In this document: positions 3,893 through 21,354 of the stretch, piece by piece
Numbering within the stretch: the stretch's first letter is position 1
Layout of the letters: each line of letters starts with the position of its first letter
Virus record (IMG/VR): IMGVR_UViG_3300048025_000118
Location: 1 to 21,544 of that record
Source of the DNA: a virus
Strand: one strand, 5' to 3'
Length of the DNA: 21,544 bases
The notes under the pieces: model-generated
The model's input: only the letters and a program-made list of their open reading frames with translations
Databases searched by the model: none
Told to the model about the DNA's origin: nothing
Made by a program: the position numbers and the translations under genes

Positions 3893-3937
3893 TTGAATGT
3901 TCCTTTCGTTTGTTTGTGTGTTTCTTCAGTCTGTCAA
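3893..3937 (-). promoter_or_regulatory. Recurring 5' leader (TTGACAGACTG) before the 221-aa gene
   Basis: Reading leftward, TTGACAGACTG (3937-3927) starts at the base after the nuclease stop, then comes an A/C-rich stretch (AACACACAAACAAAC) and the ribosome binding site AAGGAA. The same layout precedes the genes starting at 6932, 16425 and 18553. No -10 box lies at a usual distance downstream of TTGACA, so I read it as an untranslated leader rather than a -35 element. Here it is intercistronic, without a ribozyme or an obvious promoter. Confidence 0.6.
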
Positions 3938-6962: not shown

Positions 6963-7016
6963 CAGTCTGTCAATATAACCTTTATAATATTATATCCTGT
7001 CTGTTGTCAACAGGAT
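6963..7016 (-). promoter_or_regulatory. Promoter, operator palindrome and leader of the leftward replication operon
   Basis: On the minus strand: -35 TTGACA (7010-7005), 18-base spacer, -10 TATAAA (6986-6981), predicted +1 near 6974. The leader TTGACAGACTG begins at 6973, right at the predicted transcript start. The -35 sits inside a perfect palindrome CTGTTG-t-CAACAG (7001-7013) flanked by ATCCTG and CAGGAT, a plausible operator. Confidence 0.6.
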
Positions 7017-10205: not shown

Positions 10206-10256
10206 AAAAAAATCTCCCTATAAAATTCAATCTGTCAAGATTAATAATATAGGGAG
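10206..10256 (-). promoter_or_regulatory. Long hairpin with U7 overlapping a ribosome binding site (attenuator or RBS switch)
   Basis: Minus-strand arms CTCCCTATA (10256-10248) and TATAGGGAG (10222-10214) pair perfectly; further inside, TAA-type pairs and AATCT/AGATT close a TGAC loop, giving about 17 pairs with two mismatches and one bulge. Seven T (10212-10206) follow and run straight into the ATG. The structure can act as a rho-independent terminator and also hides the AGGGAG ribosome binding site. The TTGACAGATTG variant of the recurring leader forms the hairpin tip. Confidence 0.65.
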
Positions 10257-10285
10257 CGACATGGAATACTATAGTGTTTAATTAC

Positions 10286-11509: not shown

Positions 11510-11971
11510 ATGGGAACATTAGTTGGTGTTGATATAGGAACTCTTTGCGGGGTTGCTTGGAGGAAAGATTCAGTCATCAGACACATCAGATTTGACACGT
11601 CTAAAGCTAGAATTAGCGGGGGCGGGATGAGACCTCTTATGATGAGAAGACATTTAATGGAATTGTTTGATGAGATAGAACCCATCGAAGAATTAGGTTT
11701 TGAATTAGTCCAAAGACATAGCGGGACATATGCGGGACAGATTTATGGAGAGTTGCGAGGTGTCTTGATGTCTGTCTGTGAAGAGATGTCTATCCCGTAC
11801 AGATCAATTGGCGTTACCACTATCAAGAAACATATGTGCGGGATTGGAATTGCATCAAAGGATATTGTCAGACAAGCAGTTGTCGAGAAGTATCCTGATC
11901 TAGACCCTCAGACAGAAGACGAGGCTGATGCGATTAGTATATTACAATGTGTAATGGATGGAGTTTTTTAA
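11510..11971 (+). CDS. RuvC-like Holliday junction resolvase
   Basis: 153 aa, the usual RuvC size, with an RNase H-like fold. Acidic catalytic residues appear at the expected places: Asp8 in GVDIGT, Glu65 in LGFELVQ, and Asp137 and Asp140 in EDEADAI, matching the E. coli RuvC spacing (7, 66, 138, 141). Lys106/Lys107 in TTIKKHMCG correspond to the conserved DNA-contacting basic patch. It probably resolves branched replication or recombination intermediates before packaging. The start has only a weak ribosome binding site (TAGG). The stop overlaps the next ATG by one base. Confidence 0.88.
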   Translation: MGTLVGVDIGTLCGVAWRKDSVIRHIRFDTSKARISGGGMRPLMMRRHLMELFDEIEPIEELGFELVQRHSGTYAGQIYGELRGVLMSVCEEMSIPYRSIGVTTIKKHMCGIGIASKDIVRQAVVEKYPDLDPQTEDEADAISILQCVMDGVF

Positions 11972-12972: not shown

Positions 12973-13193
12973 CAGCTTTCTCCCTCTAATTGTTTGACAT
13001 CCATTTTGTTCCAAATGGATCGATTAACTTTAAATTTGATGTTATGAAATGGGACAAATATTCTTACCCATTTATAACCTACAACTGCAAAGACATGCCT
13101 AAGTCCACAAATTGGAAATCTCATTTCATTTAAGTAGACATGGAATAGTTGTGCAGTAGACCAAGACTTTTCTTTAGGCTTGTGCTTGTACAT
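12972..13193 (-). CDS. Unrecognised 73-aa protein
   Basis: Basic, aromatic-rich protein (SWSTAQLFHVYLNEMRFPI, VGYKWVRIFVPF). ATG 13193 is preferred because GAGGGGG lies six bases upstream; it begins within the last codons of the 104-aa gene. No family recognised. Confidence 0.62.
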   Translation of the reverse strand: MYKHKPKEKSWSTAQLFHVYLNEMRFPICGLRHVFAVVGYKWVRIFVPFHNIKFKVNRSIWNKMDVKQLEGES

Positions 13194-13488
13194 AGTCTGC
13201 CCCCTCTTCTCTTCCCTGGAAGTAACCAAGTGGCATAACGTCATGTTCTTGAGTTATGAAAAGGTCTTGCTGATCTATAAACTTAAAGATAGTCCAATAG
13301 ACATATGCCTTTATGTGTGATTGATCTTTGAATATATGAACGTCAAAAAACTTCCCATCATATTCAAAGTATTCATATGCATTATCAAAGTTTTCATCCT
13401 TGTCTATAATATCTTGGACAAATGTTTTGATCATGCTTACAAATTGCGGATTGGAATTGTAATACATTTCCATTCTGTAATTAGCCAT
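13174..13488 (-). CDS. Unrecognised 104-aa protein behind a hammerhead ribozyme
   Basis: Soluble protein rich in Tyr, Phe and Asp; no motif recognised. ATG 13488 has TATGGAG upstream, itself directly after the recurring leader TTGACAGAC (13511-13503). A type II hammerhead ribozyme ends two bases before the leader, so the mRNA of this gene is probably separated from, or linked to, its upstream neighbours by self-cleavage. Confidence 0.7.
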   Translation of the reverse strand: MANYRMEMYYNSNPQFVSMIKTFVQDIIDKDENFDNAYEYFEYDGKFFDVHIFKDQSHIKAYVYWTIFKFIDQQDLFITQEHDVMPLGYFQGREEGADYVQAQA

Positions 13489-13501: not shown

Positions 13502-13511
13502 AGTCTGTCAA
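13502..13511 (-). promoter_or_regulatory. Recurring leader TTGACAGACT after the type II ribozyme
   Basis: The leader begins two bases after the 3' end of ribozyme stem II and is followed by TATGGAG and the start codon at 13488. Confidence 0.6.
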
Positions 13512-13512
13512 C

Positions 13513-13605
13513 TAATAAATCGAGGAACTGCCTCGTCAGTATGTCTCAGTCACAAGACACAGACACCCAAGTAAACTTGGATGTTTCAACATTTACGATT
13601 TATTA
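13513..13605 (-). ncRNA. Hammerhead ribozyme, type II
   Basis: Minus strand, 5' to 3': stem II strand TAATAAATCG (13605-13596), then further stem II bases, GAAA (13587-13584), stem III ACATCCAAG/CTTGGGTGT (13584-13576 with 13571-13563, one G-U pair, TTTA loop), cleavage residue C13562, stem I TGTGTCT/AGACATA (13561-13555 with 13546-13540), core CTGACGA (13539-13533), and the closing stem II strand ending CGATTTATTA (13522-13513). The outer ten stem II pairs are perfect; the inner part has G-U pairs and a small internal loop. Cleavage is expected between 13562 and 13561. The first stem II strand overlaps the last codons of the upstream 52-aa gene. Confidence 0.85.
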
Positions 13606-13751
13606 TTTTTTTCAAGCAGGTGAATGATTTTTTGAATACGTTCATAAGCGGAAAGGTGTGTCTCCACACCATCCACATATGTATCTGCTTTATACTCATA
13701 GCAATCTAATTGATGCTTGAGATCATAGGCAAGGATAAGAAGTTCATCCAT
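13593..13751 (-). CDS. Small 52-aa protein
   Basis: Reads MDELLILAYDLKHQLD at the start and ends in HLLEKNNKS; mostly helical, probable short coiled coil. It overlaps the upstream gene by eight bases. Its last codons double as one strand of stem II of the type II ribozyme. Function unknown. Confidence 0.62.
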   Translation of the reverse strand: MDELLILAYDLKHQLDCYEYKADTYVDGVETHLSAYERIQKIIHLLEKNNKS

Positions 13752-14052
13752 GATTTTTCAACCTTTTAGCAAACCATTTTTTAATTGAGACATTAGTTAC
13801 ATTGGTTTTTAATCCAATAAATTTTTTAACTAATTCTAAGTCTGCTAATATAGATTTATTAGTTTTACCATCAAATAAGAATGGACTGCCATGAAACATT
13901 TCCATCATACAAATTCTATAATAGATTTCTTGGATATTTTTTTCTGTAAAATGTCCAACCTCTATTAACATTGTCATATGGATCATAGTTTCAATAATAT
14001 CCTTACCAACATTTTCTAGATCACATTTTCTAGTATCATAATGTAAACCCAT
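13744..14052 (-). CDS. Unrecognised 102-aa protein
   Basis: Helical, methionine-rich protein (IIETMIHMTMLIEV, ICMMEMFHG) with a basic C-terminus (KKWFAKRLKNHG). I chose ATG 14052, with GGGAG eight bases upstream; a longer in-frame reading from a TTG at 14100 would run through the end of the upstream zinc-knuckle gene. No family recognised. Confidence 0.62.
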   Translation of the reverse strand: MGLHYDTRKCDLENVGKDIIETMIHMTMLIEVGHFTEKNIQEIYYRICMMEMFHGSPFLFDGKTNKSILADLELVKKFIGLKTNVTNVSIKKWFAKRLKNHG

Positions 14053-14054
14053 TA

Positions 14055-14219
14055 TTAATTCTCCCATACAAGATTTGAGGTTGGTTGCTTTTCTAAACAA
14101 TCAGGACACGAAACACTATCGTCTTTCAAACCAAACATTTCGCCTTGGAAAAAACTATTTTCATCCTCGTAATATTCGATGTGATCGCAGTAATCACATC
14201 CCATTTTTTCTTTAGCCAT
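14055..14219 (-). CDS. 54-aa protein with two CxxC zinc knuckles
   Basis: ATG 14219 (GGAG nine bases upstream, one-base overlap with the upstream stop). CDYC (8-11) and CPDC (about 38-41) suggest a small zinc ribbon. Acidic in the middle. Function unknown. Confidence 0.66.
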   Translation of the reverse strand: MAKEKMGCDYCDHIEYYEDENSFFQGEMFGLKDDSVSCPDCLEKQPTSNLVWEN

Positions 14220-14377
14220 TATTTTAACTCCTCTATTCTTTTAAAATCTATTGATTCAGTTTGAGATATTTTTTCATGTCCGTCAGTATAGTTTGCTTTT
14301 GCATCTTCTTTGTTGTCTGCTCTAACTACCCATACTTCAGTAACTTCTTTCCATACTTCTATTTCAAAAGTTTTCAT
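14219..14377 (-). CDS. 52-aa protein, strand-helix type
   Basis: MKTFEIEVWKEVTEVWVVRA forms two likely beta strands, then NKEDAKANY a helix. The pattern is common among short phage proteins of unknown function. Start and stop each share one base with the neighbouring genes (TAATG). Confidence 0.64.
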   Translation of the reverse strand: MKTFEIEVWKEVTEVWVVRADNKEDAKANYTDGHEKISQTESIDFKRIEELK

Positions 14378-14574
14378 TATGCATTCTCCCATCTTTCTAC
14401 ACCAACAATTTCAACTATATGGTCTTTATAGGCGGGGTGTTTTTCAAAATCATTCTCAATATCAGAGGCTAATCTTTGTATGTCTATGTAAAGACGTTTT
14501 CCATTTTCTTCTACATTTTCTTCTTCATCAACGTAGTCAAACACATCTATTTTAAAGTAAGATTGATTACCCAT
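14377..14574 (-). CDS. Unrecognised 65-aa acidic protein
   Basis: MGNQSYFKIDVFDYVDEEEN start, helical QRLASDIENDFEKHPAYKDH. Both ends share a base with the neighbouring genes. No motif recognised. Confidence 0.64.
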   Translation of the reverse strand: MGNQSYFKIDVFDYVDEEENVEENGKRLYIDIQRLASDIENDFEKHPAYKDHIVEIVGVERWENA

Positions 14575-14807
14575 TATTTATTCTCCCATTCTTCTATTTG
14601 ATTAAGTAAACCCTCAGCACATTCGTGTCTGCCCTCGCAGATATCATCAGTACCATCAGTAAGAATTTCTTCTCCATCAATGATAGGTTGCTGATATTTA
14701 ACCTCATCTATCAACCATGATTTAATCTTGTTAATCAAGTCATCTTTCTGATCTATTGCAGACATGAGATTGTCTCTCTCTGTATGTAGTGCTTTTATCT
14801 TATCCAT
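14574..14807 (-). CDS. Unrecognised 77-aa acidic protein with N-terminal coiled coil
   Basis: Residues 1-32 (starting MDKIKALHTERDNLMSAID) have coiled-coil character; the C-terminal half is acidic with two cysteines. It overlaps the 3' end of the upstream gene by eight bases. Function unknown. Confidence 0.64.
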   Translation of the reverse strand: MDKIKALHTERDNLMSAIDQKDDLINKIKSWLIDEVKYQQPIIDGEEILTDGTDDICEGRHECAEGLLNQIEEWENK

Positions 14808-15213
14808 AAATTTTCTCCCTGTTTTCTGCCTGTGCAGATAAGTTTAAAATAATAATATTTTTATTTGTCTGAGGATCATGCTCATAAGTTAAAGCAATGA
14901 TGTCTCCCGCTTTAGACTTTTGCTTGATGGATTGGATACTAAATCTTTTATCTCCACGAGCCTTAGTCTTATAGAAGTTAACCTTGGTTGGAGTATCAAC
15001 TCCATTAAACCTAAAGACTGCGGACAAAGTCTGCTTATCTCCATTTGTCATAGTCTTAAAGTCAACACCGTACAAAGATGCGAACCTTTCAAATACTCCC
15101 GCATCAATATTATTTTTATCCCACATGGTATGGGTTAGTTTTAAATGTGGAAATTGTGGATCAAGAGATTGAACTACATTGGTTTCCATTTTTGAATAGT
15201 TTTGATTATTCAT
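14800..15213 (-). CDS. Unrecognised 137-aa protein
   Basis: Soluble, slightly basic protein. The second half (VFRFNGVDTPTKVNFYKTKA, RFSIQSIKQKSKAGDIIALTY) looks like a beta-barrel or OB-like arrangement, but no family is recognised. Of two in-frame ATGs I prefer 15213, which has AAAGGAA at correct spacing; ATG 15228 would add five residues. It begins within the end of the helix-turn-helix gene, so both are probably coupled. Confidence 0.65.
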   Translation of the reverse strand: MNNQNYSKMETNVVQSLDPQFPHLKLTHTMWDKNNIDAGVFERFASLYGVDFKTMTNGDKQTLSAVFRFNGVDTPTKVNFYKTKARGDKRFSIQSIKQKSKAGDIIALTYEHDPQTNKNIIILNLSAQAENREKIYG

Positions 15214-15655
15214 TGTCGTTCCTTTCATAAAGTAAGTAATGTTTTAAGTTTTGTAGAATTGTCTCGATCGCAGATAGACTGCGAACACTTGGAATCCTAG
15301 ATGGTAAATCCTCATCTAAACTGACGGGAGTACCCGTTGATATAGATAAGGCTCTGATCCTCATGGATACTTTTAATCTTAGATAATCTGAAATACCTTT
15401 TGGTATACTTGTTCGACTGTTCAACCAATTTCTAACAACTTGGTCATTAACTTTGAACAATCCGCAGAGTTCTTTACTAGACATATCCAAGGCTAAAAGA
15501 CAGACACGAAGTTGATCAGACGTGATCGTTGTCTGTGTCTGTCTAATGTCCTCAATTGGAAATGCTTTTGTATTACCTGCGTGGCTAGATTTTTTAGAAA
15601 ATCTTTTTCTTAAAAGTTCATCAGGCACAGATGGTATTTTATTTTCTGTTCCCAT
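15206..15655 (-). CDS. Helix-turn-helix protein
   Basis: 149 aa from ATG 15655 (AGAGGTGGAG upstream). Residues about 45-92 form a probable Xre-like helix-turn-helix: LRVCLLALDMSSKELCGLF and VNDQVVRNWLNSRTSIP, with VVRNWL as recognition helix. N- and C-terminal tails are Ser/Thr-rich. Probably a transcription regulator of this block of small genes. The 17-base overlap with the membrane protein gene is long compared with the other junctions. Confidence 0.7.
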   Translation of the reverse strand: MGTENKIPSVPDELLRKRFSKKSSHAGNTKAFPIEDIRQTQTTITSDQLRVCLLALDMSSKELCGLFKVNDQVVRNWLNSRTSIPKGISDYLRLKVSMRIRALSISTGTPVSLDEDLPSRIPSVRSLSAIETILQNLKHYLLYERNDNE

Positions 15656-15863
15656 TGCTCCACCTCTTAAAAGAATATTCACTTTCAATTACGATGATGG
15701 GCAAGACAATGCCAACTAGAATAAACATAGTTGATATTGCCCACATGATCCAATCAGTAGGTTGGGATAAAGCAATATTTGTCTCAACCAGATCCAGAAT
15801 TGCGAACCCAAAAAAGAAATAGATCACAGACATAAAGATTAGAAATTTTTTAATCTTACTCAT
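15639..15863 (-). CDS. Small membrane protein with two transmembrane helices
   Basis: 74 aa from ATG 15863, with GGGAGGT four bases upstream, preferred over the longer reading. Helix 1 covers about residues 5-25 (FLIFMSVIYFFFGFAI), helix 2 about 38-58 (WAISTMFILVGIVLPIIVI); positive residues at both ends. It could act at the host inner membrane, for instance in superinfection exclusion or lysis control, but nothing specific shows this. Confidence 0.68.
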   Translation of the reverse strand: MSKIKKFLIFMSVIYFFFGFAILDLVETNIALSQPTDWIMWAISTMFILVGIVLPIIVIESEYSFKRWSNGNRK

Positions 15864-16425
15864 TAGCACCTCCCCATAATTTAGGATGGTTGTACAATAA
15901 GTTTTCACAGATAATAGTTTTAGCATCAGCAAACTTGTCAGCTATGTCTTTCCCTAACTTGTCATTAACTAGCCATCTAGGAAATTCAAAACAAATATCT
16001 TCACGATTTTTTAGATTATATATTCTATCATTAATGATTAGGGATTTAGCAATCCAAACATCAATTTTATTAGCAAACTTAATCAAGAGAGCCTTTTCAC
16101 TTTCTTTTATAAATTTACCATAAATAAAGATGTCATCTGCTTTGTCACTTTTAATTAAATTGTGATCATTTAATAGCTTTATTTCTTTTTCAGATAATGA
16201 CCTTACATATTTAAGATTTTTCTTTTCAATCCAAAGAGGTTTAACGTCAATTATAGCAAATCTGTCCTCATAACTAGGATCGTCATCAGGTAAAAAACAT
16301 TTGATTACATCATCTTTATAAGCAGTCTTTCCTCTCCATACTGAAAGGACAAAACGACCCGCTTTAACTTTTTGAAGTCTATTAGTAGTGACCTCATAAA
16401 GATTTAAATTATTTTCATTATTCAT
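15856..16425 (-). CDS. Unrecognised 189-aa protein behind a hammerhead ribozyme
   Basis: Soluble protein, no family recognised. Visible: short beta stretches (GRFVLSVWRGKT, FAIIDVKPLWI) and a helical basic middle (SLSEKEIKLLNDHNLIKSD). ATG 16425 has GGAG seven bases upstream and follows the leader TTGACAGACT. Overlaps the membrane protein gene by eight bases. It opens the series of small genes, and the type I ribozyme ahead of it would separate this series from the vWA message. Confidence 0.7.
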   Translation of the reverse strand: MNNENNLNLYEVTTNRLQKVKAGRFVLSVWRGKTAYKDDVIKCFLPDDDPSYEDRFAIIDVKPLWIEKKNLKYVRSLSEKEIKLLNDHNLIKSDKADDIFIYGKFIKESEKALLIKFANKIDVWIAKSLIINDRIYNLKNREDICFEFPRWLVNDKLGKDIADKFADAKTIICENLLYNHPKLWGGANE

Positions 16426-16456
16426 AATGAAACTCCATTAGTTTGATTGTGTGTTA

Positions 16457-16466
16457 AGTCTGTCAA
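16457..16466 (-). promoter_or_regulatory. Recurring leader TTGACAGACT before the 189-aa gene
   Basis: TTGACAGACT (16466-16457) is followed by AACACACAATCAAAC and GGAG, as at 3927-3937 and 18588-18598. It lies 20 bases downstream of the ribozyme core. No -10 is found at a usual spacing. Confidence 0.55.
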
Positions 16467-16486
16467 CTTGTGATATTAATTAGCTA

Positions 16487-16533
16487 CCACGACATAAATG
16501 TTTCGACCTTGCTAAAGGGTCTCATCAGGTGGT
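16487..16533 (-). ncRNA. Hammerhead ribozyme, type I (copy 2)
   Basis: Minus strand: stem I ACCAC (16533-16529), core CTGATGA (16528-16522), stem II GACC (16521-16518) and GGTC (16508-16505) around a 9-base loop, GAAA (16504-16501), short stem III ACA/TGT (16501-16499, 16494-16492) with a TTTA loop, cleavage residue C16491, closing stem I GTGG (16490-16487) plus a further A-U pair at 16486. Cleavage is expected between 16491 and 16490. Clearly a sister of the copy at 18608-18659, with a much shorter stem III, which might make it slow as a monomer. Confidence 0.82.
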
Positions 16534-16538
16534 TAGTA

Positions 16539-16558
16539 GGGCAATTCTAAAACTGCCC
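16539..16558 (-). terminator. GC hairpin downstream of the vWA gene
   Basis: GGGCA (16558-16554) pairs with TGCCC (16543-16539), extended by a G-U and two A-U pairs, AGAA-type loop. No U-tract follows, so it may be an RNA-stabilising 3' hairpin rather than a terminator. It takes the same place as the GC hairpins upstream of the other three rightmost ribozymes. Confidence 0.5.
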
Positions 16559-16570
16559 CACTATAAAATT

Positions 16571-18553
16571 TTATCGAAGTATTTTGTTTAGATCGTGAAG
16601 ACCTTTTTTAATCATGTCTTTAGCTGATCCCTCAACTACGAAATGATCAAAGCAACCATCAAAATCTTTTACAAACTCATCTAGTCTTTTTTGTTGTTGT
16701 GGGTCTATGTGAGCATAGATTTTGTAAAGACATAAGATCAGACCAATAACCTCAATTCCCCATTTAGCCATAATCTTTTTGGCTTGTTGGGTTCGCTTAA
16801 TTGAGTTAGGTGCTCCATCAGTTATAATAATCATAACCTTACGATCTTCAGACCTTTTCCTAAGCCTAAGACCCTCAGCCATCATAGCTTGATGGGTAGG
16901 TGTTCCACCGCCCGCCTTACCGTGTTGAGATGCAATAAACTTTTTAGACTTGATCCAATTATGGTCATGATCTTTCAGTAAAGTGTAAGGGTCATCATAA
17001 TACTCAGTACCCTCAGATAGTGAAACAACCTGACCTCTTTGTGTCTCCGCATAAGGATAACAACCTACTGCATATTTTACTTGAACTTTATGCAAAGCAT
17101 TACCCAAAATCATTGCTAAGTTTATACTTTCCTTAGCATTGTTAACTCTTATGTTGCCCCAATCTCTATCTCTCATAGATGATGATGTATCAATCAACAA
17201 TGATACGGCAGTTTTAGTGCCTTTTTGTTTCCAAGGCTGATAAAACATATTAGGAGTATTAGTACATAATTTCCCTAATTTCCTAACATCTAATTTACCT
17301 CTGTCTCTATGTCTTTTAGACCCACGTCTATCAGGATTTTTAAGAATTCTAGATAAAGTTTGAGAGCAATCAGAAACATTAACTAATTTTAATGCTCTAT
17401 CAACTGATTTGAGTTTATTATCTAAACGTCTAGATAAATGTTCATCATCACAATCGACCATCTGATTAACATTGTAAGTTTCTGCTTTTAAATCTTCATT
17501 TCTAGAATGTCTATCTCCATCAACATTTTTATCAGGATTATTTTTAGCATCTTCTTGTAGATAATCTTCTTTATTCTTAAAAGACTGATCAGATAAATCT
17601 ATAGATATAGAACCACCTGACTGCTCTTCTTCTCCTGATCGATCAACATTGACAGTATTTTGAGATGATGAAGAACTTTCAGAACTATCTTCAGAACTTT
17701 CAGAACCATCTTCAGAACTTTCAGAACCATCTTCAGATTTATCTTCAGAACTTTCAGAACCATCTTCAGAACTTTCAGAACCATCTTCAGATTTATCTTC
17801 AGAACTTTCAGACCCATCTTCAGATTTCTCAGGAACACCCATACCCTGATTGCTTTGATTTTGGTTTTGGTTTGAATACTGCCCCATCAACTCAATGCAT
17901 AAGTCTAAAACATCTTGAGTATTTTTACATGCTTTTAACTTGATTAAAGCCGTTTCTAGGTCATGTCTAAGTTTACCGCTAGATACTAACAAATCTTCAG
18001 CAGAACCTATTGACGGGACACTATACCCGCACATATCGATATAAGCCAAGATGTTTAAGCAGTATGAAAAATTTCTAGGATCATCAGCTTTAAAACCATT
18101 CTTGATACTTTCATCAACTGCCCAAGCGGTTAACTTTTCAAGAACATTTTTAGCACCCTCAAAATGACATCTAGACAATAATTCTTTTTCTTGTCTAGGG
18201 TCTTCCAAGGCATTTAAAAGTCTTGTAATTCCAACCTGACCTCTTCTCTCCAAGGCTACTGCTTTATTCCAAACATCTTTTTGAGTGCAGAGATTATGCC
18301 CTATCTCATGTAAGGCAAAACCCGTATAAACCTCAGCCATATAATTAGTAATCTTGGCATCAGCTTTGATTGGTGGAAAATTAATATTAGAAATTAATTC
18401 ATTCTTGTCATTATATTCCCAACTAGTGGATGCAGTATAACCGCCCCACTTAATATTTAATTTCTTGAGTTTTAAATCAGTTACATATTTCAAAGCTGAT
18501 AAAGTATTTTTCTCAACCGCTGAAACTAATTCACATGCAATAATATTATGCAT
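16571..18553 (-). CDS. vWA-domain protein with HEXXH motif and acidic Ser/Asp-rich linker (CobT/MoxR-partner type)
   Basis: 660 aa. N-terminal region holds HEIGH (82-86), a zinc-peptidase type motif, followed by LEDPRQE (116-122) that may give a third ligand. Residues about 241-297 are an imperfect repeat of Ser, Glu and Asp. The C-terminal von Willebrand A domain has a complete MIDAS: DTSSS (Asp454, Ser456, Ser458), GGGTPTH (Thr550 or Thr552) and ITDGA (Asp578). This order (helical N-domain, acidic linker, vWA) is that of CobT/BchD-like chelatase subunits and of vWA partners of MoxR ATPases; the HEIGH motif favours a peptidase-like vWA protein. It lies directly downstream of a MoxR/CobS-like ATPase, its likely partner. 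Start 18553: GAGGAG about eight bases upstream, after leader and ribozyme. Confidence 0.85.
   Translation of the reverse strand: MHNIIACELVSAVEKNTLSALKYVTDLKLKKLNIKWGGYTASTSWEYNDKNELISNINFPPIKADAKITNYMAEVYTGFALHEIGHNLCTQKDVWNKAVALERRGQVGITRLLNALEDPRQEKELLSRCHFEGAKNVLEKLTAWAVDESIKNGFKADDPRNFSYCLNILAYIDMCGYSVPSIGSAEDLLVSSGKLRHDLETALIKLKACKNTQDVLDLCIELMGQYSNQNQNQSNQGMGVPEKSEDGSESSEDKSEDGSESSEDGSESSEDKSEDGSESSEDGSESSEDSSESSSSSQNTVNVDRSGEEEQSGGSISIDLSDQSFKNKEDYLQEDAKNNPDKNVDGDRHSRNEDLKAETYNVNQMVDCDDEHLSRRLDNKLKSVDRALKLVNVSDCSQTLSRILKNPDRRGSKRHRDRGKLDVRKLGKLCTNTPNMFYQPWKQKGTKTAVSLLIDTSSSMRDRDWGNIRVNNAKESINLAMILGNALHKVQVKYAVGCYPYAETQRGQVVSLSEGTEYYDDPYTLLKDHDHNWIKSKKFIASQHGKAGGGTPTHQAMMAEGLRLRKRSEDRKVMIIITDGAPNSIKRTQQAKKIMAKWGIEVIGLILCLYKIYAHIDPQQQKRLDEFVKDFDGCFDHFVVEGSAKDMIKKGLHDLNKILR
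17680..17825 (-). repeat. In-gene repeats coding for the Ser/Glu/Asp-rich linker
   Basis: Tandem units of 18 and 24 bases, combined in a 42-base higher-order period, encode SEDGSES/SEDKSED variants. Unit number is likely variable through slippage; all unit lengths are multiples of three, so the frame is kept. Confidence 0.8.
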
Positions 18554-18587
18554 AAAAATGCTCCTCTTGTTTGTGTGTTATGATAGT

Positions 18588-18598
18588 CAGTCTGTCTA
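18588..18598 (-). promoter_or_regulatory. Recurring leader (TAGACAGACTG) before the vWA gene
   Basis: Variant with TAGACA instead of TTGACA, followed by AACACACAAACAAG and GAGGAG. The change destroys the best -35 match yet the rest is kept, which argues that the element is read as RNA rather than as a -35 box. Confidence 0.55.
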
Positions 18599-18607
18599 AG
18601 GTAGCTA

Positions 18608-18659
18608 CCACGACATAAAAAAATTATGTTTCGACCATGCAAAAGGTCTCATCAGGTGG
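18608..18659 (-). ncRNA. Hammerhead ribozyme, type I (copy 1)
   Basis: Minus strand: stem I CCAC (18659-18656), core CTGATGA (18655-18649), stem II GACC (18648-18645) and GGTC (18636-18633) with an 8-base loop TTTTGCAT, GAAA (18632-18629), stem III ACATAA/TTATGT (18629-18624 with 18618-18613, T5 loop), cleavage residue C18612, closing stem I GTGG (18611-18608). Two further pairs extend stem I beyond one mismatch. Cleavage is expected between 18612 and 18611, leaving a 5' end GTGGTAGC ahead of the vWA leader. Confidence 0.87.
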
Positions 18660-18663
18660 AAGT

Positions 18664-18697
18664 AAAAACTGCCCCAATAAAAAAATATTGGAGCAGT
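18664..18697 (-). terminator. Rho-independent terminator of the AAA ATPase gene
   Basis: Stem ACTGCTCCAATA (18697-18686) with TATTGGGGCAGT (18679-18668), one G-U pair, T6 loop, followed by TTTT. It stands ten bases after the ATPase stop and just before the type I ribozyme. If it terminated fully the ribozyme could only be made from read-through, so partial termination is likely. Confidence 0.75.
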
Positions 18698-18706
18698 TAA
18701 AAAATT

Positions 18707-20176
18707 TTAATACGGCATTTTCTTTTCAGTATCTTCAGACGTGTCTTCTTCTGTGTCTACTGTCTGATCTTGTTCTGTCTGAATTTCTTCAGCGGGCAAT
18801 TCTCCATCAACTACTAATATTTTCATAATCTTAGGATCAATATGAGTATTAAATAATTGAGATAACAATTCCCTATCAGATGGATCAAGTGAATTGCCCA
18901 TACAAGCCATTAAAGAAATCTTAGGATCAATTCCATCAACTAATCTGTTAATCCATGAAACTGTATTTCTAAAATTTGGAGCAAGTGTTGGAGCATCTCC
19001 TCTAGTATTTGCATCTCTACAAAGGTTAATAAACTCTACAATTTTGTCGCAAAGCCTTTGACCCGTACCCGTTTTATTCTGCAAGATTTTACTTTCCACA
19101 GATGGTTTAGGATATGAGACCTCAAGAGATACCGCAAATCTACTAAGTGTAGAACTATCCATTTGAACCGCTGATGAGAATTGACCCGTCAGATCGCCCT
19201 GACCATTTGTATTATCAGCACCTACAATAACAACACCCTCCGCAAAAGGTATCCTTTCGCCCGTCTCAGGTATTATATATTCACGATCTTGAAGAACACC
19301 ATTTAAAGCAATTAAAATATTTTGTGGAATTCTTGCAATTTCATCAATTAATAAAACTGTATAAGGTTGTTTAACTGCTTTTAATAAAAGTCCATCTTGC
19401 CAATATGTTGATCCATTCTTAGCACCAAAACTCCCAAAAAACTGATCAATACTTAGATCAGCATTTCCCGTAATGGCAATGAACTGCCTACCCGTCTTAG
19501 CACAAAACCATCTAGGTAGTGATGTTTTTCCCGTACCCGCCTTTCCATACAAAAATATATTATCAGGTATTCTTCCATCTTTATTAGATGCACAACTCAG
19601 GAACATTTCTAAAACTTCTTTTTGAGGTGTGTAATTTTCATCAACTACGGGAGACCTTGGATCATTGTAGATATCAAAACTTTTATCTGCGAATGATCTA
19701 AAACCAAATAGTTTAGAACCCGTTTCAGACCTAACCTTATTGATTGGCAAAATCTCTGTCTCAGGAAATCCAATTTCTGAAACTGAACCATCAGAAACTT
19801 TTACAATCTTCTCAGTTATGGGCGGATTATTTTTAAAAATTAATAGATCATTAATTTGATCCCTTAAATCTTTAACGGGCAAACCCATAATATTATTTAA
19901 CTGTTTGTCTATGCCTGACACTTTTAAATCAGGCTGACCAATTGGATTAGCTACAACCTTGGGCGGGTTAGCTTGTCTAACTTGTTGACCAATATTTTGT
20001 GAAACTACAGTCCCAAAGTTATTTAAATCAATTCCCAAATCTTCCGCTAATTGTATCCATTCCGCTTTGGTCAAAAGGTTAACACCTTTAGACGGCTTTA
20101 AATGTGGCTGATTGATCAATTCTGATCTAATTGCACCTAGAACCATAGTCCTTTGTTCATTTGTAAATTTAAGCAT
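18707..20176 (-). CDS. MoxR/CobS-like AAA+ ATPase
   Basis: 489 aa. Residues 1-70 include a small helical domain (NEQRTMVLGAIRSEL); the AAA+ core starts near 180. Walker A GKAGTGKT (211-218), Walker B LLIDEI (Asp278, Glu279), sensor 1 near Asn322 in VGADNTN and an arginine in STLSRF (Arg346) are present; the segment ending TGERIPFAEGVVIVGA (304-319) is typical of the MoxR/CobS/gas-vesicle GvpN branch, where the ATPase remodels a target with a vWA partner. The C-terminus (about 460-489) is acidic. Phage copies are often annotated CobS; whether it supports cobalt insertion or another remodelling task is open. ATG 20176 has GGAG seven bases upstream, after the leader CTGACAGAC and a type III ribozyme. 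Confidence 0.88.
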   Translation of the reverse strand: MLKFTNEQRTMVLGAIRSELINQPHLKPSKGVNLLTKAEWIQLAEDLGIDLNNFGTVVSQNIGQQVRQANPPKVVANPIGQPDLKVSGIDKQLNNIMGLPVKDLRDQINDLLIFKNNPPITEKIVKVSDGSVSEIGFPETEILPINKVRSETGSKLFGFRSFADKSFDIYNDPRSPVVDENYTPQKEVLEMFLSCASNKDGRIPDNIFLYGKAGTGKTSLPRWFCAKTGRQFIAITGNADLSIDQFFGSFGAKNGSTYWQDGLLLKAVKQPYTVLLIDEIARIPQNILIALNGVLQDREYIIPETGERIPFAEGVVIVGADNTNGQGDLTGQFSSAVQMDSSTLSRFAVSLEVSYPKPSVESKILQNKTGTGQRLCDKIVEFINLCRDANTRGDAPTLAPNFRNTVSWINRLVDGIDPKISLMACMGNSLDPSDRELLSQLFNTHIDPKIMKILVVDGELPAEEIQTEQDQTVDTEEDTSEDTEKKMPY

Positions 20177-20190
20177 TTACTTTCTCCATG

Positions 20191-20198
20191 TCTGTCAG
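20191..20198 (-). promoter_or_regulatory. Recurring leader (CTGACAGA) before the AAA ATPase gene
   Basis: CTGACAGA (20198-20191) starts at the base after the ribozyme 3' strand and is followed by CATGGAG and the ATG at 20176. Confidence 0.5.
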
Positions 20199-20258
20199 TT
20201 TACTGATTTCATGCTTTCGCAATCATCAGATCGAATAACACATTCGATTATCAGTAAA
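20199..20258 (-). ncRNA. Hammerhead ribozyme, type III (copy 1)
   Basis: Minus strand: outer stem III TTTACTGAT/ATCAGTAAA (20258-20250 with 20207-20199, nine perfect pairs), cleavage residue A20249, stem I ATCGAAT/ATTCGAT (20248-20242 with 20236-20230, seven pairs, GTGTT loop), core CTGATGA (20229-20223), stem II TGC-GAAA-GCA flanked by a U-U juxtaposition (20222-20211), and GAAA (20210-20207). Cleavage is expected between 20249 and 20248. The U-U at the base of stem II, where G-C is usual, also occurs in the copy at 21000-21051. Confidence 0.85.
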
Positions 20259-20264
20259 AAATTG

Positions 20265-20292
20265 AAAAGGGGCAATAAAAAAATACTGCCCC
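20265..20292 (-). terminator. Rho-independent terminator after the 120-aa gene
   Basis: GGGGCA (20292-20287) with TGCCCC (20274-20269), extended by three inner pairs and a T-rich loop, then TTTT. It lies between the 120-aa gene and the type III ribozyme. Confidence 0.72.
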
Positions 20293-20302
20293 ATGTCTAG
20301 TT

Positions 20303-20665
20303 TTAATTGTTTGTATTGATTTTATCACTTTGAATTTTATTCCACATTATTCCATAATCAGTTACTGATGCTAGATTTTGATGAATTAAATCTATTAAAG
20401 TTTTTTGTATCTTAACTGAAACTTTTCTTGAGCAAGTTTTCCCTGATGCCAATTTAGATTGGTGAAAATAAAAACCTTTGTCATAAAGTGGTCTTTTTCT
20501 CCCACTTAAACTTTTAGGAATAAAAGTTTTCCATTCATCTGTTGGATGATACCAACCTTTATATTCAGCACCATCTTTAGCAGTACATTCAATCCATATA
20601 CTCAATGGATAACCATCATCTAATTGTCCCATATTTCTATGGTCATATATTTTATTTAATTTCAT
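20303..20665 (-). CDS. Unrecognised 120-aa protein
   Basis: Beta-rich, tryptophan-containing protein (YPLSIWIECTAKDGAEYKGWY, DEWKTFIP), basic in the middle (SGRKRPLYDKG, KTCSRKVSVK). No family recognised. Its ATG shares one base with the stop of the 102-aa gene, so both are translated as a pair. Confidence 0.7.
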   Translation of the reverse strand: MKLNKIYDHRNMGQLDDGYPLSIWIECTAKDGAEYKGWYHPTDEWKTFIPKSLSGRKRPLYDKGFYFHQSKLASGKTCSRKVSVKIQKTLIDLIHQNLASVTDYGIMWNKIQSDKINTNN

Positions 20666-20973
20666 TATATTGCTCCCTCACTATCTGTTAATTTTATTAG
20701 CTGATCTACATCATAGTTTGATCCATTGATCCAATCATCATGTAACTCTTGACCAAGTATTGAGATTATAATTTTAGATATTGGATTACAAATTCGAGCA
20801 ACTAGATAATGATCTAATTCATTTACTAAATTCATTGTTTCATAGTTGCCAACAAATTTACCACCAAACTCCTTATCTGTTTTGCTATCTACATCCGCAA
20901 TATTTCCAAAGTTATAAGCATCAGATAAAAGCCTAAGTAACTTGATTTCGTCTTGATTTAATTTCTTGTACAT
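20665..20973 (-). CDS. Unrecognised 102-aa protein
   Basis: Helical, acidic protein (QDEIKLLRLLSDAYNFG; LVNELDHYLVARICNPISKIIISIL). No motif recognised. ATG 20973 has GAGGAG nine bases upstream and follows the leader CTGACAGATTG and a type III ribozyme. First gene of the leftward series that continues through the ATPase and vWA genes. Confidence 0.7.
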   Translation of the reverse strand: MYKKLNQDEIKLLRLLSDAYNFGNIADVDSKTDKEFGGKFVGNYETMNLVNELDHYLVARICNPISKIIISILGQELHDDWINGSNYDVDQLIKLTDSEGAI

Positions 20974-20987
20974 TATTGAAACTCCTC

Positions 20988-20998
20988 AATCTGTCAGT
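20988..20998 (-). promoter_or_regulatory. Recurring leader (CTGACAGATTG) before the 102-aa gene
   Basis: The leader starts one base after the 3' end of the ribozyme and is followed within a few bases by GAGGAG and ATG 20973. Confidence 0.5.
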
Positions 20999-20999
20999 T

Positions 21000-21051
21000 A
21001 ACTGTTTCACTCTTTTGAGATCATCAGGCTGAATTACATTCAACTACAGTT
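21000..21051 (-). ncRNA. Hammerhead ribozyme, type III (copy 2)
   Basis: Minus strand: stem III AACTGT/ACAGTT (21051-21046 with 21005-21000), cleavage residue A21045, stem I GTTGAAT/ATTCAGC (21044-21038 with 21034-21028, one G-U pair, GTA loop), core CTGATGA (21027-21021), stem II CTC-AAAA-GAG flanked by a U-U juxtaposition (21020-21009), GAAA (21008-21005). Cleavage is expected between 21045 and 21044. Against the copy at 20199-20258, stems II and III have different bases but keep pairing, and stem I keeps it with compensating changes. Confidence 0.85.
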
Positions 21052-21057
21052 TTTTAA

Positions 21058-21079
21058 GGGGCAATAAAAGAATTGCCCC
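21058..21079 (-). terminator. GC hairpin ahead of the type III ribozyme
   Basis: GGGGCAAT (21079-21072) with ATTGCCCC (21065-21058), 6-base loop. Only two T follow, so termination is uncertain. Same relative place as the hairpins at 16539, 18664 and 20265. Confidence 0.5.
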
Positions 21080-21080
21080 C

Positions 21081-21306
21081 TAATTAATTTGTTTGGAGTG
21101 ATTAAAAACAATTTCAAGTCTTAGGAGTGGATCGTGTTTTGCACCAACTTAACTTGAATTTCTTAATCTGCGGTGGCTAGCTATTTACCCATGCTAGTAG
21201 TCAGAATTTTTGGATCGTACATAAACCTAAAGTGGCGGTTATCAAAGCAGTTACCTCATTCTGCGGGTTGGATGGTCAGTCCTTAAAAACCTTTATTTCT
21301 CCTCTG
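21081..21306 (-). other. Non-coding, probably structured leader RNA
   Basis: No credible reading frame: after GAGGAG near 21303-21298 no start codon follows at usual spacing, and the first ATG (in AGAATGAGG) meets a stop two codons later. Complementary segments are present (ATTCAAGT with ACTTGAAAT; CTAGC with GCTAG), suggesting a folded RNA. It would be transcribed from the promoter at 21325-21354 and cut from the 102-aa message by the ribozyme at 21000-21051. I could not fold it as a tRNA. Confidence 0.4.
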
Positions 21307-21354
21307 TCTGTCAAACACTCGTAGAGTGTAATTTGAAAACCCTATTTTTGTCAA
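21306..21354 (-). promoter_or_regulatory. Promoter and leader at the right end
   Basis: Minus strand: -35 TTGACA (21354-21349), 18-base spacer, -10 TACACT (21330-21325) lying in the palindrome ACACTC-TAC-GAGTGT, predicted +1 near 21318. The leader TTGACAGAC (21314-21306) follows within four bases. Likely drives the structured leader and the 102-aa, 120-aa, ATPase and vWA genes. Confidence 0.6.

Follow-up and report, generated by a model that had tools for sequence, protein, structure and literature searches.

Five hammerhead ribozymes of three topological types at gene junctions of a probably temperate marine phage, and hammerhead arrays in other marine phages

The locus examined here raises the question of what several self-cleaving ribozymes are doing between the genes of one virus. 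The window, by which the whole 21,544 nt stretch analysed is meant, is the IMG/VR virus record IMGVR_UViG_3300048025_000118, and an earlier note had described in it five minus-strand hammerhead ribozymes (HHs) of types I, II and III with their core motifs in the correct order. All five were recovered using a descriptor covering the three circular orders, with the core CUGANGA, GAAA and UH and stems of at least 3-4 pairs. A first, stricter version found four of the five and missed the element cut at 16491/16490, which has a 2-nt stem III loop; when this loop was allowed, the five elements and no other site in the window matched (Table 1, in which each element can be found by the second number of its cleavage site, the name used below). 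Each is intergenic, lies sense-oriented in a 5' leader and has CUGANGA, GAAA and U16.1-H17 in the correct circular order. The predicted cut sites at 13562, 18612, 20249 and 21045 were reproduced by the descriptor, and 16491/16490 was read from the sequence; all agree with those first proposed. In 2000 dinucleotide-preserving shuffles a mean of 0.017 HHs per window was found (none in 1968, one in 30 and two in 2), and a near-identical descriptor found no match in six named phages of varying relatedness (CRP-810, HTVC027P, HTVC023P, HTVC104P, 023Pt_psg01 and DSL-LC04), scanned over their initial 50 kb each, 300 kb in all. Judged by sequence, the five elements are real hammerhead ribozymes at the coordinates in Table 1, and they are predicted to cleave themselves.

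A covariance-model match above threshold, which the earlier note had proposed as a check, was not obtained, as none of the five reached a gathering threshold with the Rfam models RF00163, RF00008, RF02275 and RF02276. In core and layout the type II element matches Hammerhead_II (RF02276) and the type I elements match Hammerhead_HH9 (RF02275), but they score below gathering, at 28 bits for the type II element (the best score; gathering 37) and 19.4-19.5 bits for the two type I elements (gathering 52), and the search returned no match for the two type III elements. These thresholds are insensitive, since just two HHs pass in loci L152, L160, L078 and L053 together, and current Rfam models miss most of the phage HHs described here. 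Other Rfam matches, with E up to 5 (snoRNA, rsmX and mir-281), were dismissed as chance. The minimum free-energy fold corresponds to the HH stems for the 20248 element (all three stems) and the 18611 element, and for the 13561 type II element it contains stems I and III and an outer helix.

The elements differ at the pair 10.1-11.1, which is standardly Watson-Crick and usually G-C: it is G-C in both type I elements, G-U in the type II element and U-U in both type III elements, which therefore have a stem II of 3 bp. The U-U mismatch is no bar to HH membership, the standard pair being usual but not obligatory: U-U is a documented natural variant (PMC3088659) and is present in 43 of 89 type III relatives described below. 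U3-A8 in the core is likewise a documented variant (PMC3088659). Stem III of the 16490 element can be drawn either with 3 bp and a 2-nt loop or with 2 bp and a 4-nt loop. The type II element has a short stem II (GGCA/UGUU, with two G-U pairs), which an outer helix of 9 bp, AAUAAAUCG/CGAUUUAUU, lengthens, and a possible loop I pseudoknot. The 5' arm of the outer helix (13604-13596, minus strand) consists of the last codons of the upstream gene, with the stop codon TAA directly after it, and this ribozyme thus overlaps the end of a coding region.

The window belongs to a marine phage that is probably temperate, in line with the phage origin first suggested. L001/G001, a record of 59.6 kb that is almost identical to it, has genes for terminase, portal, a major head protein, tail fibres and integrase, and shares with the window genes for ribonucleotide reductase, DNA polymerase A, an exonuclease, a SNF2-like helicase, a primase, a RuvC-like resolvase and CobS-like and CobT-like proteins. 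When this longer record was scanned with the descriptors no HHs besides these five were found. The closest named phage found was CRP-810, a Roseobacter phage with 34% portal identity over 83%, which likewise carries cobS, cobT, integrase and resolvase genes and had no HH in its first 50 kb in the descriptor scan.

Five syntenic relatives (L004, L005, L007, L008 and L009; CobS 70-82% identical) retain HHs at most of the corresponding junctions; looking by alignment for remoter relatives of CobS gave nothing new. The type III HH upstream of cobS (20248) is also present in L004, L005, L007 and L008. L004, L007, L008 and L009 carry orthologues of the 18611 type I HH in which stem I and stem II have changed in a compensatory manner, and the orthologues of the 16490 type I HH, in L004, L007 and L009, have U3-A8, not C3-G8. 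In the type I alignment (n=9) compensatory C-G/U-A changes were seen in stem I and in stem II, and the stem III positions counted do not vary; a contact between loop II and a stem I strand is A-U in seven sequences, G-C in one and U-U in one. The type II alignment (n=3) has three compensatory double changes in stem I and single pairing-preserving changes in stem II, with 98.9% of cells paired compared to 35-46% when partners were slid. Pairing in the possible pseudoknot between loop I and the 3' tail is kept in the three sequences, with one-sided changes alone. The covariation in related phages that had been proposed as a check is found for type I (n=9) and type II (n=3), and also for type III in a wider set (n=89). 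Convergent acquisition of the ribozymes, a further proposal of the earlier note, holds in part, since the two type I copies are alike, as are the two type III copies, so that three founding elements suffice.

The wider set came from a pattern confined to the core of the type III subfamily that includes the 21044 element; this pattern matched at least 120 viral-contig stretches. From the fetched loci, 89 distinct sequences were picked on core letters alone. All 89 are paired at 12 stem positions (six in stem I, three in stem II and three in stem III), with up to six pair types per position; U16.1 is present in 89/89 and H17 is never G. As the pattern required neither pairing nor U16.1/H17, these look like functional ribozymes. 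Arrays of HHs are common in unrelated marine phages. At least three HHs occur in 25 of the 116 fetched loci, with four or five type III HHs each in L053 and L062, six type I HHs within 2.5 kb in L078, at least six HHs in G011 (L160, L196) and at least 13 in the 39.8 kb record G008 (L194, L195), where they share one strand and each lies 26-92 nt before an ORF. The HHs of G008 and G011 are mostly of type I, and in places there is about one per gene; those of L160, which encodes an N4-like RNA polymerase, are styled like those of G008.

The surroundings of the HHs were compared for 136 distinct examples with full context, and 93 of them had a ribosome-binding site with a gene start in sense orientation 15-130 nt after the cut, compared to 5 in antisense. 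A strong G/C hairpin ended no more than 12 nt upstream of 50 of 94 type III HHs, as opposed to 2% of random positions (p ~1e-51). For HHs of types I and II the count was 8 of 42 (p ~2e-4 against type III); these p-values assume that the HHs are independent, which is not fully the case. Only three of the 50 hairpins adjoining type III HHs have a U-tract. In the window each HH precedes a gene or gene block, as had been described, and each of the four junctions of types I and III has a hairpin, two with a U-tract and two without; neither the terminator scan nor the sequence revealed such a hairpin at the type II junction. The promoter-like site upstream of the whole region scores 10/12, a score equally frequent in shuffles; its TTGACA and the downstream leader are kept in L004, L007, L008 and L009. 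This leader (~21313-21180, minus strand), 3' of the promoter, contains conserved AGAGGAGAAAUAAAGGUUUUUAAGGACUGACC...CCGCAGA without a clear ORF before the first HH, and is possibly a small RNA.

The structure of the HHs, their covariation and synteny, their orientation and context, and the statistics on the hairpins are observed; from these we infer cleavage in the cell, a single transcript, protected RNA ends and a benefit to the phage. The best explanation is probably that a polycistronic transcript is cut, while it is being made, into messenger RNAs with protected ends, and mRNA processing, the role first proposed for the HHs, stands as a likely one. The five cis-acting HHs would mark the starts of successive gene blocks in one minus-strand transcription unit, whose long transcript would start, probably, at the promoter near 21340 and read through the intergenic hairpins. 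Each HH would fold during transcription and cut its own RNA once, giving mRNAs for the 102/120-aa genes, cobS, cobT, the 189-aa gene block and the 104-aa gene block. Every cut would leave a 5'-OH leader ~58-73 nt ahead of the start codon and an upstream piece with a hairpin beside its new 3' end. At a type III junction this would be the separate G/C hairpin, and at a type I or II junction the ribozyme's own stem III hairpin can close the upstream piece. The reason may be topological: in the type III case the ribozyme remains on the downstream RNA, so that a separate 3' hairpin would be required for the upstream RNA, and with types I and II the stem III hairpin is already at the 3' end of the upstream RNA. 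Since the type III upstream hairpins rarely have a U-tract, cleavage and not termination would leave the hairpin-ended upstream mRNA. The likely benefit would be that neighbouring genes could differ in stability and be translated independently, with no need for additional promoters or for RNases of the host. Whether the arrangement is more general is evenly balanced in our judgement: a hairpin with a type III HH, or a type I or II HH with its own stem III hairpin, may be a compact mRNA-end cassette, widespread in marine phages, that replaces terminator-plus-promoter pairs by giving the upstream RNA a hairpin 3' end and the downstream RNA a defined 5'-OH leader.

Several observations weigh against processing of this kind. 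The HH is not the minimum-energy fold in two of the five elements (21044 and 16490), and the two window hairpins with a U-tract might simply end transcription, with the HHs acting on read-through alone. L007 has no type II HH; in its place, at 15554-15577, is a short junction, AATAAATCTTAATAGTTGACAGAC, where the relatives hold the ribozyme between the arms of the outer helix, and the type II HH is dispensable because L007 lacks it yet retains the leader motif and gene start. In L004 the type I HH upstream of cobT (11525-11540) has a one-base insertion after CUGACGA (CUGACGA-U-GAUC), which may weaken its cleavage. The difference in hairpin rate between type I and type III HHs comes from a small number of phage groups whose independence is not complete. 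The predicted new 5' end of the cut type I RNA can re-pair downstream in this lineage, where five of six cases beat ~90% of shuffles, but not generally among the type I HHs of other phages (median rank 0.45), and a 5'-terminal hairpin after every cut was dropped as a general rule.

Alternatively, the hairpins may be ordinary terminators and each block may have its own promoter, the HHs just trimming read-through or leaders. We regard this as rather unlikely. The hairpins at 18698-18667 and 20292-20269 do have U-tracts and score as terminators, but a U-tract is absent from two of the four window hairpins and from 47 of the 50 adjoining type III HHs, and there is no convincing conserved promoter between hairpin and gene, a space that the HH occupies and where promoter-scan matches are weak and no commoner than in shuffles. 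That the HHs are chance assemblies of core motifs, as their sub-threshold Rfam scores might suggest, is almost inconceivable given the shuffle expectation and the absence of matches in the named phages, and is already contradicted by the compensatory changes.

It is also improbable that the HHs are passengers, selfish or neutral, in the form of small elements that duplicate in leaders and have little effect on the phage. Such elements would account for the similar copies within one genome, of which there are up to 13 in other phages, and for the lack of the type II HH in L007, and HHs readily arise in selection experiments (PMC3088659). Against this, cores are conserved and stems change in a compensatory manner at syntenic sites among relatives, the HHs are sense-oriented beside gene starts, and neither a mobility gene nor a flanking duplication was seen. 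We hold it to be just as improbable that the ribozymes are regulated switches, in which an alternative fold or a ligand governs cutting, and not constitutive processors. Regulated phage HHs have been suggested (PMC3088659), the type II element can form a competing hairpin, CGAGG-CAGUU-CCUCG, whose pairing is kept in L009 as CGAGA..UCUCG, and the type I 5' ends of the lineage can re-pair downstream; this re-pairing is however not general beyond the lineage, the loops are short and no conserved aptamer-like insert is present.

Processing of long transcripts has a precedent. Perreault et al. 2011 described prophages in which genes or short blocks of genes are flanked by multiple type I-III HHs, and proposed that long phage transcripts are processed into operon- or gene-length mRNAs; tandem phage-type arrays cleave in vitro, and one cleaves in E. 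coli (PMC3088659). The earlier note was thus wrong in its premise that HHs in phages mostly occur as isolated copies, because clustered type I-III HHs in prophages were already on record (PMC3088659). The window resembles those clusters in having several sense HHs of types I, II and III flanking genes or blocks. Those clusters are in bacterial prophages, whereas the window represents a lineage of marine viruses in which five junctions carry HHs of all three types with syntenic conservation; further differences are the hairpin upstream of the type III cuts and the up to 13 copies seen in other marine phages. The theta ribozymes of gut phages (PMC10879173) are similarly small, self-cleaving and used repeatedly by phages to make RNA ends without host RNases, but they have an HDV-like fold and lie at tRNA 3' ends, whereas the window elements are hammerheads at mRNA junctions. 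This is thus a known kind of ribozyme, used by this lineage and several unrelated marine phages far more systematically than in the published cases found. Searches of the open-licence literature turned up neither a description of HH arrays in marine phages nor one of their association with hairpins, which is weak evidence of novelty. The role of HHs in phages has been open since 2011, and arrays with a hairpin before the cut predict specific RNA ends that can be checked by infection transcriptomics.

Table 1. Coordinates of the hammerhead ribozymes and associated features in the window
Feature	Position	Strand	Details and basis
Promoter-like site	21325-21354	-	TTGACA, 18 nt, TACACT; consensus scan
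G/C hairpin	21057-21080	-	Directly 5' of first type III HH; no U-tract, then CUUAAAAAA; sequence
Type III HH	21000-21051	-	Cleavage 21045/21044, GUA; stems I/II/III 7/3/5 bp; U10.1-U11.1; descriptor
102-aa gene, function not assigned	20665-20973	-	First gene after 21044 type III HH; no PHROG match; ORF list
120-aa gene	20303-20665	-	Follows 102-aa gene
Terminator-like hairpin	20269-20292	-	GGGGCAGU..AUUGCCCC then UUUUC; terminator scan
Type III HH	20199-20258	-	Cleavage 20249/20248, AUA; stems I/II/III 8/3/8 bp; descriptor
CobS-like AAA+ ATPase gene	18707-20176	-	phrog_249, E 2.7e-49
Terminator-like hairpin	18667-18698	-	13 bp, with U-tract; terminator scan
Type I HH	18606-18660	-	Cleavage 18612/18611, GUC; stems I/II/III 4/4/5 bp; descriptor, Rfam HH9 19.5 bits, fold
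CobT-like gene	16571-18553	-	Acidic Ser/Glu-rich repeats; phrog_17276 CobT, E 1.7e-8
12-bp hairpin	16535-16562	-	No U-tract; 3' arm overlaps 5' flank of 16490 ribozyme; fold, sequence
Type I HH	16486-16534	-	Cleavage 16491/16490, GUC; stems I/II/III 5/4/3 bp; relaxed descriptor, Rfam HH9 19.4 bits
189-aa gene, function not assigned	15856-16425	-	Heads block downstream of second type I HH
Type II HH	13514-13604	-	Cleavage 13562/13561; descriptor, Rfam Hammerhead_II 28 bits
104-aa gene, function not assigned	13174-13488	-	Downstream of type II HH
Leader motif UGACAGAY	20989-20996, 20190-20197, 16458-16465, 13503-13510	-	Between ribozyme and Shine-Dalgarno sequence
Leader motif counterpart UAGACAGAC	~18594	-	
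UGACAGAY, further copies	21306-21313, 6965-6972, 3929-3936, 10230-10237	-	

The leader motif UGACAGAY occurs 10 times in the window, against 2.2 expected, and also precedes genes without an HH. Among its copies in the lineage a ribosome-binding site and gene start follow within 60 nt in 26 of 39 cases, compared to 18 of 156 for control motifs, and it appears to serve the phage as an RNA or translation signal. The sequence TGACAGAC was rejected as a part of the ribozyme, as it also stands before genes without an HH and is missing after the HHs of L009.

At 10210-10260 (minus strand) in the window an inverted repeat, CUCCCUAUA...UAUAGGGAG, surrounds UGACAGAU; it is conserved in L004 (~21300) and L007 (~18370), where the L007 version is CUCCCUGUA...UACAGGGAG. 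It would hide the Shine-Dalgarno sequence and hold the leader motif in its loop. The CobT-like gene contains a run of DGSESSED repeats (17677-17830, minus strand) whose DNA resembles CUGAAGA..GAAA cores and so produces false HH core matches. In Pelagibacter phage HTVC027P (L188) the stretch 17753-17873 (minus strand) strongly matches the Rfam Flavobacterium-1 RNA, at 90 bits (gathering 59).

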